From Clostridiaceae bacterium (GTDB taxonomy: Bacteria > Bacillota > Clostridia > DSM-8532): a stretch of DNA of 64,000 nt. This document shows, piece after piece, positions 18,459 to 63,598 of this stretch (the first letter of the stretch is position 1; every line of letters begins with the position of its first letter). Made by a program: the position numbers and the translations under genes. The stretch is taken from assembly GCA_012728095.1 (NCBI GenBank), contig JAAYFU010000007.1:1-64000 (forward strand), in the 5' to 3' direction. The notes under the pieces were generated by a model. It saw only the letters and a program-made list of their open reading frames with translations, had not been told where the DNA came from and did no database searches.

Positions 18459-20369
18459 CTATGCCCGTGTTCTTATCTCCTCCACAATTTTTTCCACGAA
18501 TTTGTCTAAATCCATCGCGCCTAAGTCCCCGTCTTTCCTGGATCTTACCGCAACTGTTCCCTGTTCTACTTCCTTATCGCCTATAACAAGCATGTAAGGA
18601 ACTTTTTCAAGCTGCGCTTCACGAATCTTGTACCCTATTTTTTCATTTCGATCGTCAATTTCAACGTCTACGTCATATTCTCTAAGCTTATCAGCAACTT
18701 TTTGAGCATATTCATGGTGTTTTTCCATGATAGGTATAATCTTTGCCTGTACCGGGGCAAGCCATACGGGGAATGCGCCGGCATAGTGCTCAATTAATAT
18801 TCCGAAGAATCTTTCGATAGAACCCAGCAGGGCCCTGTGAATCATATATGGGCGCTTTCTGCTTCCGTCCGATGCGATGTAGGTTATATCAAAACGTTCA
18901 GGCTCATTAAAGTCGAATTGTATTGTTGTACACTGCCATTCACGGTTAAGAGCGTCCTTAATCTTAATATCAATCTTGGGTCCGTAGAAAGCCCCGCCTC
19001 CTTCGTCCACATCACATTCCAGTCCTTCGGCTGCGACAGCTTCCTTCAAGGCTTTTGTGGCCGCTTCCCACATGCTTTCGTCCCCAACATATTTATCTTT
19101 TGGTTTTGTGGAAACATATATTTTAAAATCCTTAAACCCAAAAGCATTTAGGATTGAAAGACTAAATCTCAGTACCCTGCGGATTTCATCGGGCATTTGT
19201 TCAGGGGCGCAGAAAATATGGGCATCATCCTGGGTAAATCCCCTTACCCTCAGAAGGCCATGGAGAGCTCCGCTTTTCTCATAGCGGTAAACAGTTCCCA
19301 ACTCAGCCCATCTGTATGGTAAATCACGATAAGAGTGCATTTTGCTCTTATAAATGGCAATATGGAAAGGACAGTTCATAGGCTTGGCGTAGAAATCCTG
19401 TCCGTCTACATCCATAGCCGAATACATGCTTTCCTTATAGAACCCTAGATGTCCCGATGTCTCCCACAGCTGTCCTCTGCCTATATGGGGAGTGTAAACC
19501 AAATCGTATCCGTTTTTAAGATGCTCTCTTCTCCAGAAATCTTCAATGTGCAGCCTGACACGGGCCCCCTTTGGATGCCATAACACCAGGCCGGGACCCA
19601 CCTCTTCATCAAAGGAAAATAATTCAAGTTCCTTGCCAAGACGCCTATGGTCACGCTTTTCCGCTTCTTCCAGCATTTTCAGGTACTCTTCCAGCTGGCT
19701 GGCTTTAGGAAACGCAGTACCGTATATTCTCTGGAGCATTTTATTTTTCTCATCGCCCCTCCAGTATGCACCAGCCAGTTGCATGAGTTTAACAGCCTTT
19801 ACCTTGCCGGTTGACATAAGATGAGGCCCGGCACAGAGATCAGTAAAATCACCCTGCCTGTAGAAAGATATCTCAGCATCTTCTGGAAGTTCCTTTATAA
19901 GCTCAACCTTATAAGGCTCGTCCTTCATAAGCTCAAGAGCTTTCTCCCTGGAAAGAGTAAATCTTTCTATGGGAGTATCCTCTTTAATTATTTTTTTCAT
20001 TTCCTGCTCAATCGCGGCCATATCCTCGGGAGTAAAACTCTTGTCCAGATCAAAATCATAATAGAAACCGTTGTCAATAGCCGGCCCGATAGCAAGTTTT
20101 ACACCCGGGAAAAGCCTTTTTACAGCCTGGGCCATTATGTGGGATGTGGTATGCCAATAGGCATGCTTGCCTCCCTCATCATCGAAAGTAAGAATACTCA
20201 ATTCACAATCCTCATACAACTGCTTTCTCAAGTCTTTCAACTCACCATTTACCTCTCCAGCCAATGCTACCCGGGCAAGCCCTTCGCTGATATCCTTCGC
20301 TATATCGAAAATAGTAATCCCGCTTTCATAGGATTTGACGCTTCCGTCTTTTAATTTAATCTTTATCAT
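18459..20369 (-). CDS. thrS: Threonyl-tRNA synthetase
   Basis: TGS domain, editing domain HTTSHIMAQAVKRLFP, class II motifs, C-terminal anticodon-binding domain. Confidence 0.97.
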   Translation of the reverse strand: MIKIKLKDGSVKSYESGITIFDIAKDISEGLARVALAGEVNGELKDLRKQLYEDCELSILTFDDEGGKHAYWHTTSHIMAQAVKRLFPGVKLAIGPAIDNGFYYDFDLDKSFTPEDMAAIEQEMKKIIKEDTPIERFTLSREKALELMKDEPYKVELIKELPEDAEISFYRQGDFTDLCAGPHLMSTGKVKAVKLMQLAGAYWRGDEKNKMLQRIYGTAFPKASQLEEYLKMLEEAEKRDHRRLGKELELFSFDEEVGPGLVLWHPKGARVRLHIEDFWRREHLKNGYDLVYTPHIGRGQLWETSGHLGFYKESMYSAMDVDGQDFYAKPMNCPFHIAIYKSKMHSYRDLPYRWAELGTVYRYEKSGALHGLLRVRGFTQDDAHIFCAPEQMPDEIRRVLRFSLSILNAFGFKDFKIYVSTKPKDKYVGDESMWEAATKALKEAVAAEGLECDVDEGGGAFYGPKIDIKIKDALNREWQCTTIQFDFNEPERFDITYIASDGSRKRPYMIHRALLGSIERFFGILIEHYAGAFPVWLAPVQAKIIPIMEKHHEYAQKVADKLREYDVDVEIDDRNEKIGYKIREAQLEKVPYMLVIGDKEVEQGTVAVRSRKDGDLGAMDLDKFVEKIVEEIRTRA

Positions 20370-20597: not shown

Positions 20598-20840
20598 AAA
20601 AAACTCTCACCCAAATGTATAACATTTAAGGGTGAGAGCTTATACTCACACGGTTCCACCTTAATTACAGAAATAATTCTGTCACTCATAAGATTATAAC
20701 GTAATCAACGTGATAGCTTACTGTTATTTCGGCCATCAAGCTCCGGGGTGGTACAAAACAGTGATTCGCAGGAAGGATTGCAGCCGGGTCCTTCCCTCTC
20801 TGAAGCGTTTGCAACAGTTTTGCATGTCCCCTTCATAGCA
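20598..20840 (-). promoter_or_regulatory. T-box leader of thrS (putative ACC specifier, T-box AGGTGGAACCGTG, terminator hairpin)
   Basis: Minus strand: Stem I GCTATGAAGGGG...CCCCGGAGC, specifier-like ACC followed by A (20750-20752), AAGGTGGAACCGTG (20647-20662), terminator CTCTCACCC...GGGTGAGAGTTTTTT. Confidence 0.88.
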
Positions 20841-20918
20841 TTTTCATATTAAAGACAAGTTCATAATACAATATCGGGTTTTCTTTGTCAAACCTTATGT
20901 TCATTATCATCATATAAT

Positions 20919-59640: not shown

Positions 59641-59667
59641 AAAAGCGGGGAATTATTCCCCGCTTTT
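59641..59667 (-). terminator. Rho-independent terminator closing the serA-LUD unit
   Basis: AAAAGCGGGGAATAATTCCCCGCTTTTTT on the minus strand. Confidence 0.9.
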
Positions 59668-59693
59668 CATTGACATATTTTAACTTTATTACG

Positions 59694-60335
59694 TCAATAT
59701 CCAAGGCTTTCCCCTACGAGAATAACCTTTATACGGTCTTTTTGTCTCTGTTGCCTGAAAACCGTATATGAGCAGCAAATACGATCTTCGGTCCTGCAGT
59801 CAACACAATATCCTGTTTTGGCACAGGGTGTATTCTTATTTAATCTTATTGTATTGGCAGGAGCTGCAATTCGCCTAACTCTCTCGATAGCCTCGTCCGT
59901 GTTTTTTACGATCTTATTGATTCCCGCGACCACTATAACACTTTTGGGGCCATAAATCATCGCGGCTACCCGATTCCCATTGCCATCCACATTATAGAGT
60001 TCTCCGTCCTCGGTTATGGCATTGGTACTTGTCAAATAGGTATCAGCAAAGAATGATTTTCTGAAAATCTCTTCAACCTGATTTCTGGTCAATCCTTCCT
60101 CATATCTGTCTAAAAAGTTATAACGGCCTGATCTTAAATGTTCCAGCACCCCGGTTTCTTCCAGAGTCACCGAACCTCCGACAGCTACCGTTTCGCCTTC
60201 ATTAATTAATTCAGCAACCTTGTTAACAACCTCATCTTTGCTCTCAACATAAAAAGCCATCATGTTGTTTTTGACAAGGTTATTCATCGTTCTTTCCACT
60301 TTTTTGGCTATAACGGCTTTCAGATTCTTGTCCAC
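59694..60335 (-). CDS. LUD-domain (LutC/DUF162-like) protein with Cys-rich C-terminus
   Basis: FYVESKDEVVNKVAELINEGETVAVGGSVTLEETGVLEHL; C-terminal CAKTGYCVDCRTEDRICC. Confidence 0.88.
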   Translation of the reverse strand: MDKNLKAVIAKKVERTMNNLVKNNMMAFYVESKDEVVNKVAELINEGETVAVGGSVTLEETGVLEHLRSGRYNFLDRYEEGLTRNQVEEIFRKSFFADTYLTSTNAITEDGELYNVDGNGNRVAAMIYGPKSVIVVAGINKIVKNTDEAIERVRRIAAPANTIRLNKNTPCAKTGYCVDCRTEDRICCSYTVFRQQRQKDRIKVILVGESLGY

Positions 60336-60363
60336 GGTATTCCTCCCAAATGTTTATTTATGT

Positions 60364-61971
60364 TCAAAAGTATAACTTGGAAACTTTCAGTATTCCATCA
60401 GTATTGCGCAGCTTTTCAATTATGTCTTCAGATACATCACTGTCCACGCTTACAAAGGATACGGCTTTGTTTGAGCTTGGGTCACGGCGGCTCCATTGCA
60501 TTGCCGCAATATTGATATTATTCTGACCTAAAAGAGTACCCACCTTGCCGATGATACCCGGAACGTCCATGTTCTGCAACGCCAGAACATATTTAGTCGG
60601 CTCGAAGTCCAGTTTATATCCGAAGAAGTCAACTATACGAACAGAATCCTTGCCAAATACCGTACCGGCCACAGAAATCATATTGCTCTTTCTGTAGAAT
60701 TTAACGGTGATCAGATTGGTATACTTCTCAAGGTGGCTGGATTTGCTCTCAACGAGTTCCACACCCATTTCGTTAAGCTTAAGCAGAGCATTGACATAAT
60801 TGACTTCAGATTCGCTGACAACAGATAAAAATCCTTTAATGATTGCCAGCGTAATCGGCTTGGTTGATTGATCAACCAAATCACCGCTATATACAACCTC
60901 AATTTTCTGAACCCTTTCCTGTTCAGCCTGGTAATATATTGCGCCTAACTTTTCTCCCAGGATTATATATGGCTTAAGCGTTTCAATATCGCCGGAGAAA
61001 TGAGGCATATTAACCGCTGCTACCAATTCTCCGTTCAGTACCGCTTCAACATTTTTCGCCACGCCTAATGAGCAGTTGATATTGGCTTCTTTGGTAGATG
61101 CCCCGAGATGTGGAGTAAATATAACCTGGTCCAGATCCAGAAGCGGGTTCCAATAATCCTGTTCCTCAGGAGCCTTGTTGAAATTGGGTTCGACCTCCTG
61201 AACGTCAAGTGCCGCACCTGCCACATGTCCGGATACAATGGCATCATATAGGGCTTTTTCATCAATCATGCCGCCCCTGGCAACATTAACGATACGAACG
61301 CCCTTTTTACACAGGGCAAGTTCTCTTGCACCAATAAGATTCTTGCTTTCAGGAGTTTTAGGTATATGTATGGTAATTACATCGGCAACTTTCAACAGAT
61401 CGTCAAGGGTCTCTGCACGAGTAACTCCCAGGCTGGCAACACGTTCATCAGATATGTAAGGATCGTATCCGATAACCTTCATCCCAACGCCCTTTAGTTT
61501 CTTTGCAACAACCGAACCGATTTTACCAAGTCCTATGATGCCCGCGGTTTTGCCGTCCAATTCTTCCCCGATAAACCTGTTTCTGCGGAAATCCCTGTTT
61601 TTAGCGGCATGATAAGCCTGGGGAATATTTCTGAAGCAGGCATATATTAATGCTATCGTCATTTCTGCCGCTGCCATGGTATTCCCGTCGGGGGTATTTA
61701 CTACTGTTATACCTCTTCTTGTACACTCTTCCACATCAATATTATCCACGCCATTACCCGCGCGGCCGGCAACTTTAAGATTCACAGCCTTTTCAAGAAC
61801 GGCTCCTTTTACCTTCGTTGCGCTTCTCACGATGATTGCGTCATATTGATCGATAATTTTCTCGAGTTCTTCCGGAGAAATCCCAAATGGTGTATCAACC
61901 TGATGTCCCTTGCTTCTAAGGTACTCAATTCCGTTTGCTGCCATTTTGTCTGTTACAATTATTTTGGCCAT
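60364..61971 (-). CDS. serA: D-3-phosphoglycerate dehydrogenase (long form with ACT domain)
   Basis: GLGKIGSVVAKKLKGVGMKVIGYDPY; C-terminal ACT-like ALQNMDVPGIIGKVGTLLGQNNINIAAMQWSRRD. Confidence 0.96.
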   Translation of the reverse strand: MAKIIVTDKMAANGIEYLRSKGHQVDTPFGISPEELEKIIDQYDAIIVRSATKVKGAVLEKAVNLKVAGRAGNGVDNIDVEECTRRGITVVNTPDGNTMAAAEMTIALIYACFRNIPQAYHAAKNRDFRRNRFIGEELDGKTAGIIGLGKIGSVVAKKLKGVGMKVIGYDPYISDERVASLGVTRAETLDDLLKVADVITIHIPKTPESKNLIGARELALCKKGVRIVNVARGGMIDEKALYDAIVSGHVAGAALDVQEVEPNFNKAPEEQDYWNPLLDLDQVIFTPHLGASTKEANINCSLGVAKNVEAVLNGELVAAVNMPHFSGDIETLKPYIILGEKLGAIYYQAEQERVQKIEVVYSGDLVDQSTKPITLAIIKGFLSVVSESEVNYVNALLKLNEMGVELVESKSSHLEKYTNLITVKFYRKSNMISVAGTVFGKDSVRIVDFFGYKLDFEPTKYVLALQNMDVPGIIGKVGTLLGQNNINIAAMQWSRRDPSSNKAVSFVSVDSDVSEDIIEKLRNTDGILKVSKLYF

Positions 61972-62093
61972 AGTTCTACCTCCTGAAAATTAACTATAAA
62001 ACCGGCTTTAATAACTAAAAAAGCCAAACTTACAATCGTTTGACCTCTGCTCAAGCACCTTTTTGTAATAAGCAAAAACAGTAGCCGACATCA

Positions 62094-62171
62094 GTCATCC
62101 TGATATAATTCCAAATAAGACTCAAAGAACCACAGAGATTCTTCCTTCTGCTTCGCTTCATTCAGAATGAC
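62094..62171. repeat. Dispersed imperfect-palindrome repeat, copy R5 (diverged)
   Basis: GTCATCCTGA...GATTCTTCCTTCTGCTTCGCTTCATTCAGAATGAC between the riboswitch and serA. Confidence 0.75.
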
Positions 62172-62189
62172 GCTATCGCTTATTGCTTT

Positions 62190-62352
62190 ACCCTCTGTCC
62201 TTTTGCCTGAGAGAGTCATCCACAAAATATGGATTTGCCCCTTCGGCGCCTTTCAAAAAGGTCTCTCCAGAGATCCGTCCGACTTAGGTCTTTTTACCTG
62301 AGAGATTTACTCCTTCGGTGTGCTTAATAAGCCGCTCTCCCTAAGTCTTCAT
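62190..62352 (-). promoter_or_regulatory. Tandem (two-aptamer) glycine riboswitch
   Basis: Minus strand: GGGAGAGCGGC...CACCGAAGGAGTAAATCTCTCAGGTAAAAAGACC then CTCTGGAGAGACC...GGCGCCGAAGGGGCAAATCC...CTCTCTCAGGCAAAAGGACAGAGG, matching the gcvT motif twice. Confidence 0.95.
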
Positions 62353-62506
62353 CCGATTATTAAATTAAACTGTTAAAATCATGATACTCCTTGGGGATAT
62401 CAAAAGTCAAGATATATAATGCATAATTTGATATTTATTTAACAATATTTTTGTATATATTGACAAGCCGCTGTTCAGTCCGCGTATCAACTATTAAAAA
62501 CTAGAT

Positions 62507-63598
62507 TTATTGAGCGCTGAAAAGAGCTTCAACAAAATCCGAAGGATTAAACGGCTGAAGATCATTCATTTGTTCACCAACACCGATAAATTTAACCGGT
62601 ATATTTAATTCGGACTTTATGGAGACTATAATTCCGCCTTTTGCAGTTCCGTCCAGCTTGGTAAGAATAATTCCCGAAAGTTCGGAGACCTCTGAAAAAG
62701 TTTTGGCCTGTGAAACCGCGTTCTGGCCTGTAGTAGCATCCAGTACCAATAAAGTTTCAATATCGGCATCGGGCAGTTCCCGCCGAATAATCCTGAAAAT
62801 CTTTCTTAATTCTTCCATGAGATTCTTTTTGGTATGGAGCCTTCCTGCCGTATCGCATATCAATACATCGGCATCCTTTGATTTGCAATGTTGAATGGCA
62901 TCATAGATTACAGCCGAAGGGGCTGCCCCTTCAGAATGCTTTATTAAGTCTACACCGGCCCTGTTTGTCCATATTTCCAGCTGATCAATGGCCGCTGCCC
63001 TGAAAGTATCGGCAGCAGCAACGGTAATCTTTTTGCCCTGTTTTTTTAAGTGATGCGCCAGTTTGCCTATAGACGTGGTTTTACCTACGCCATTAACCCC
63101 GATAACCACAATAACCGACGGCCTGGTGTCAAGCTTCAGCCGGGTATTCTCATCGGTAAGCTTAGATGCTATTATCTTCTTAAGCGCTTCGCGAATATCT
63201 TTTGTATCGGCGATCCTCTCGTTTTTCACCTTTTCTCTGAGCTCATCTATTATCTTAAGCGAAGTAGTCATCCCCATGTCTGATGTTATCAGTATCTCTT
63301 CCAGTTCCTCAAAAAGCTCCTCATCTACTTTTCCGAAAGAAACAAGCACTTCATCGATTCTTCGTGTTATTGAGTCCCTGGTCTTTTTCAGCCCGTTCTT
63401 AAGTCGTCCGAAAAACCCTACTTTAATGTTTTCGGGTATTTCAGGCGTTGTTTGATCTTCGTCGGTTTTTTCAGTATCCGCATTGTTTTCTTCAGCTATT
63501 GTATTTTCTTGATCCTCTTCGACGGGCTGGATAAGCGTATCTTCCTGCTTTTCCGTTTCATTCTTCTTTCCCCAGCCAAACCATTTATTCTTTGCCAT
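62507..63598 (-). CDS. ftsY: Signal recognition particle receptor FtsY
   Basis: GVNGVGKTTSIGKLAHHLKKQGKKITVAAADTFRAAAIDQLEIW; DTAGRLHTKKNLMEEL. Confidence 0.97.
   Translation of the reverse strand: MAKNKWFGWGKKNETEKQEDTLIQPVEEDQENTIAEENNADTEKTDEDQTTPEIPENIKVGFFGRLKNGLKKTRDSITRRIDEVLVSFGKVDEELFEELEEILITSDMGMTTSLKIIDELREKVKNERIADTKDIREALKKIIASKLTDENTRLKLDTRPSVIVVIGVNGVGKTTSIGKLAHHLKKQGKKITVAAADTFRAAAIDQLEIWTNRAGVDLIKHSEGAAPSAVIYDAIQHCKSKDADVLICDTAGRLHTKKNLMEELRKIFRIIRRELPDADIETLLVLDATTGQNAVSQAKTFSEVSELSGIILTKLDGTAKGGIIVSIKSELNIPVKFIGVGEQMNDLQPFNPSDFVEALFSAQ

Follow-up and report, generated by a model that had tools for sequence, protein, structure and literature searches.

The tandem glycine riboswitch in front of serA is very probably a transcriptional OFF switch, that is, a feedback attenuator of serA (we put the probability at roughly 0.87). 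The aptamers, the promoter, the terminator, the complementarity within the leader, the conservation of these elements, and the opposite layout of gcvT leaders are read directly from the DNA; from them, we infer that the aptamers bind glycine and that switching in vivo goes in the proposed direction. The unit lies on the minus strand at positions 59641 to 62410 of the window (the whole stretch of 64,000 nucleotides that was analyzed) and runs in the order promoter, two tandem aptamers, leader terminator, serA, LUD gene, and terminator (Table 1).

Table 1. Features of the serA-LUD unit and its surroundings, in window coordinates
Feature	Position	Strand	Details
ftsY	62507-63598	-	Upstream of riboswitch
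Sigma-70-type promoter, TTGACT-18-TATCAT	62381-62410	-	Upstream of riboswitch; top-scoring promoter on the strand
Glycine riboswitch aptamer I	62276-62352	-	RF00504, 60.2 bits, E 5.9e-10 (cmscan)
Glycine riboswitch aptamer II	62186-62275	-	RF00504, 60.4 bits, E 5e-10 (cmscan)
Aptamer-II P1 5' strand, GAUCUCUG	62275-62268	-	
Aptamer-II P1 3' strand, CAGAG	62197-62193	-	
Dispersed intergenic repeat copy	~62075-62172	-	Core GUCAUUCUGAAUGAAGCGAAG at 62171-62151; between aptamer II and terminator
Antiterminator/terminator 5' arm, CAGAGGUC	62042-62049	-	Complementary to GAUCUCUG
Leader intrinsic terminator, AGAGGUCAAAC..GUUUGGCUUUU + U run	62019-62048	-	Expression platform
serA, D-3-phosphoglycerate dehydrogenase, long form, 535 aa	60364-61971	-	PGDH_inter and ACT domains (Pfam)
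LUD (DUF162) stand-alone protein, 213 aa	59694-60335	-	PF02589, E 8e-60
Intrinsic terminator ending the serA-LUD unit	59641-59667	-	12-bp palindrome, G+C-rich core, T run

A cmscan of the window placed two tandem RF00504 aptamers at 62352-62186(-), both above the gathering score of 32, on the strand of serA and 5' of this serine gene, an arrangement that is kept in relatives. No ZTP riboswitch was found in the window by cmscan, and a whole-genome search of the 2.2-Mb genome found no glycine riboswitch besides the pair at serA. Elsewhere in the window, an ordinary T-box leader (RF00230, 116 bits) is present at 20625-20845(-), upstream of a threonyl-tRNA synthetase-like gene (18459-20369). The leader terminator ends 47 nt before the start of serA. 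The serA product belongs to the PGDH equivalog TIGR01327 (602 bits versus a cut-off of 454, over residues 3-532), and the LUD gene follows after 28 nt. A preliminary description of this DNA, made from the letters alone, had proposed a tandem glycine riboswitch between ftsY and serA, a long-form serA with an ACT domain, a LUD gene 28 bp downstream, and a strong terminator at the end; the Rfam scan, the TIGR01327 and Pfam matches, the exact gap, and the palindrome with its T run at 59667-59641(-) bear out all four, and its coordinates were all correct. Its inventory of the unit stands as listed, but the leader terminator, the promoter, the dispersed repeat, and a serC-like gene on another contig (C22) had been overlooked. 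SHMT is also encoded in the genome.

The direction of the proposed switch follows from how the leader is wired. GAUCUCUG, which is the P1 5' strand of aptamer II, is complementary to CAGAGGUC, the 5' arm of the terminator, at 8/8 pairs with one G-U, and the P1 helix and the antiterminator would compete since they share the P1 5' strand; ligand-stabilized P1 would free the terminator, which is the logic of an OFF switch. With glycine absent, GAUCUCUG would pair with CAGAGGUC, and RNA polymerase would continue into serA. With glycine bound, P1 would be held within the aptamer and CAGAGGUC set free, so that the terminator could fold and transcription would end before serA. Serine synthesis would thereby be throttled by glycine, which GlyA makes from serine in a single further step. 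In foldings with ViennaRNA, whose model leaves out ligand and tertiary contacts, the antiterminator was favored over the P1-forced structure (−81.8 versus −70.1 kcal/mol) as long as the 3' arm of the terminator had not been made.

The pairing in the window leader by itself is not better than chance, as 13% of shuffled leaders pair equally well, and therefore, the case for an OFF switch is a comparative one. When the P1 5' strand is matched against its own leader, the 5' arm of the terminator comes out as its best partner in 26/30 serA leaders. Across the 30 leaders, P1 strands form stronger duplexes with their own partners than with swapped ones (−12.87 versus −12.01 kcal/mol), and 0 of 20,000 permutations were as good, in a test that ignores the relatedness among the leaders. 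Furthermore, the pairing register is shifted on both strands together in four genomes (G004, G006, G007, and G010), exemplified by UUCUCUGGAG with CUCCGGAGAA in G004, and pairing of P1 with the terminator arm is also seen outside the family (G032, G046, and G056). The serA leaders of genus g7 (L039, L048, L087, L089, and L091) have kept the terminator, but the P1-complementary antiterminator is lost or replaced; since the complementarity of P1 and terminator is weak there, the OFF mechanism would need another antiterminator in this genus.

One peculiarity of the window leader is a dispersed repeat that lies between the second aptamer and the terminator. The repeat, with the core GTCATTCTGAATGAAGCGAAG..GAAGAATC, matches at least 15 other places in the genome, and these frequently form inverted pairs; copies lie on contigs C80, C74, C75, C1, C30, and C79. 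The insert is shared with one relative (G001) and is missing from the leaders of G011 and of most relatives. Because of this insertion, the spacer from aptamer to terminator is long, at 144 nt (127 nt in G001) versus ~57 nt in most relatives, and it is conceivable that the repeat uncouples the aptamer from the terminator and leaves a defective switch with constitutive or weakly controlled serA. We consider this unlikely: the insertion has left the terminator and the two strands of the antiterminator undamaged, with all of the 8 pairs retained, the insert folds into a hairpin of its own that would keep its two ends close, and G001, with the same insert, also retains every element.

The same aptamer class precedes gcvT in related genomes, and there the expression platform is laid out the other way round. 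In 14/14 gcvT leaders, the P1 3' strand, which reads (G)ACAGGG or similar, itself forms the foot of a terminator that follows the aptamer immediately; this is the layout of an ON switch. Since most of the described glycine riboswitches of gcv operons are ON switches (PMC11477304), the serA riboswitch might be imagined to work likewise, with glycine raising serA expression and the LUD protein serving the use of glycine. Such a role is highly unlikely in view of the wiring, as the terminator arm of the serA leader competes with the P1 5' strand and the P1 3' strand lies outside the terminator, and the true ON layout is seen in the gcvT leaders of the very same family. Six genomes (G004, G006, G008, G013, G019, and G031) carry both the serA and the gcvT riboswitch. 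Hence, a single aptamer class appears to be wired in opposite senses, as OFF on serA and as ON on gcvT, in the same family and even in the same genome. Within the genus, the riboswitch of gcvT has been retained in fewer genomes than that of serA. No glycine riboswitch accompanies the gcvT-gcvH-gcvPA-gcvPB-like cluster of the window genome (L102, G000:C5:47600-53016), and several congeners retain one; we considered that a gcvT riboswitch had been overlooked in the window genome, but none was detected even at an E value of 10.

The assignment of the OFF switch to serA is strengthened by its conservation. A riboswitch precedes serA in ~30 of the 32 genomes of the window's family, a count that includes G016, in which a contig break splits the two. 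The exceptions are G002 and G021, and no long serA was found in the latter (75% complete). In G015 (L064), aptamer II is truncated and a terminator was not found; this serA riboswitch is apparently decaying. Nearly all relatives have a counterpart of the promoter, with at least 9 of 12 positions matching, in front of the serA riboswitch; the exception is G028, in which the stretch searched contains a weak match only, because aptamer I was missed in this genome. The only conserved promoter is thus the one upstream of the riboswitch, and a scan of the coding strand of the window revealed no promoter-like site between the leader terminator and the start of serA. The preliminary description had proposed that the riboswitch controls serA and had named an independent serA promoter and absence of the arrangement from relatives as observations that would speak against it; neither was made, and family-wide conservation, the upstream promoter, and the P1-gated terminator all argue for riboswitch control.

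A natural deletion gives further insight. In G002 (L219, 1360-1520), which is a draft assembly like most of the comparison genomes, a deletion begins within aptamer I and extends as far as the ribosome-binding site of serA, and the riboswitch promoter plus ~25 nt of aptamer I are joined straight to the serA ribosome-binding site. A degenerate aptamer was considered for G002 and rejected, as the first part of aptamer I alone remains. The deletion supports the assignment of the promoter and suggests that serA is expressed constitutively in G002. With promoter and gene kept and the switch gone, this genome offers a ready comparison.

The LUD gene is a different matter. In the window species, it is probably cotranscribed and therefore co-regulated with serA, since the 28-nt gap places it in the serA transcript. 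Its only other neighbor is rimO, and no second gene of the genome matches PF02589, to which LUD scores 202 bits versus a cut-off of 22.6. From the control of the first committed step of serine synthesis and the tail of the LUD protein, the preliminary description had predicted that LUD takes part in the metabolism of serine and glycine or in the redox handling that goes with it. Indeed, in the window's genus (g1) and its sister genus (g7), LUD adjoins serA in 14/14 LUD-bearing genomes although the gene that comes next varies (rimO, ppx, or another), and in g1 the gaps of ~6-76 nt make cotranscription likely. However, any LUD gene is missing in 5 of 14 g1 congeners, in which riboswitch and serA stay, and also in most other genera of the family that retain riboswitch-serA; in genera g2, g4, g5, and g6, rimO or other genes follow serA. 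The g7 genomes have a terminator and a promoter of the TATAAT type between serA and LUD, and therefore, LUD is probably outside the riboswitch-controlled transcript there. Among the closest 80 named LUD relatives, only 5 are located beside serA, all of them in this family; the other 75 are found elsewhere, next to, for example, a purine nucleoside phosphorylase-like gene or rRNA methyltransferase-like genes (names judged from sequence). The C-terminal motif of four cysteines (Cys171, 177, 180, and 187) is invariant in nine aligned relatives from differing contexts and is therefore a trait of the LUD family that gives no hint of serine chemistry.

We also asked whether LUD might have one of two known functions. 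LutC of the LutABC lactate-utilization system is encoded together with LutA and LutB, and LutB has a LUD domain of its own; a single LUD gene between serA and rimO, with no LutB, does not fit LutC of such a system. 5-Formyl-THF cyclo-ligase, an enzyme with a link to glycine and folate, has the related ISOCOT fold, but LUD does not replace it, as PF01812 is present in nearly all genomes of the family with or without LUD, and no complementary pattern of the two was seen. A phmmer search of the PDB (E 0.01) returned no sequence relatives of LUD. Taken together, the patchy presence, the separate promoter in g7, and the unrelated neighbors elsewhere speak against the predicted role, and it is quite unlikely that serA and LUD form a functional module in which LUD has a conserved serine/glycine or redox role. 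Just as doubtful is a more elaborate version, in which the four-cysteine LUD protein would be an accessory enzyme of serine/glycine metabolism that joined the serA transcript, and so came under glycine control, in the ancestor of the two genera and was lost where dispensable. LUD looks like a lineage-specific passenger behind serA and not like a part of the serine pathway; one neighborhood is poor ground for assigning a function to it.

Glycine control of serA is of a known kind, and the leader described here is a well-resolved further case. In one Clostridium species, serA and serC are under a glycine riboswitch, and serine genes are rare in such regulons (Sun et al. 2013, PMC3766115); glycine OFF switches have also been predicted before serC/serA/serS, in tandem with T-box(Ser) (PMC9481103). 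As in these systems, a glycine riboswitch lies 5' of serine-synthesis genes, and tandem aptamers and OFF function are likewise described for serC-serA-serS, but the present unit has no T-box, contains serA without serC, and carries LUD behind it. A ZTP/glycine tandem in Bacillus and Oceanobacillus is predicted to be OFF on a serA-type gene (PMC9481103); in both, the predicted target is the first step that leads from 3-phosphoglycerate towards serine, but here a ZTP riboswitch is missing. The glycine riboswitches of AGCS (Na+/alanine-glycine symporter) genes of Streptococcus pyogenes and Vibrio cholerae are reported to be OFF as well (PMC5829553, PMC11477304); the direction is alike, but their target is a transporter and not a biosynthetic gene. 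The ON riboswitch of gcvT of the Bacillus subtilis type shares the aptamer family and is often tandem, too, but has the opposite layout of the expression platform. Compared to LutC and the LUD family (PMC3924224), PF02589 is common to both, but the LUD protein behind serA has no LutA or LutB partner, and its four-cysteine tail is typical of stand-alone clostridial relatives. In the literature outside subscription journals, we found no earlier account of the anatomy across a family, of the OFF/ON contrast, or of the natural deletion. The link between serine genes and glycine riboswitches, described as rare (PMC3766115), is extended here to a whole family.
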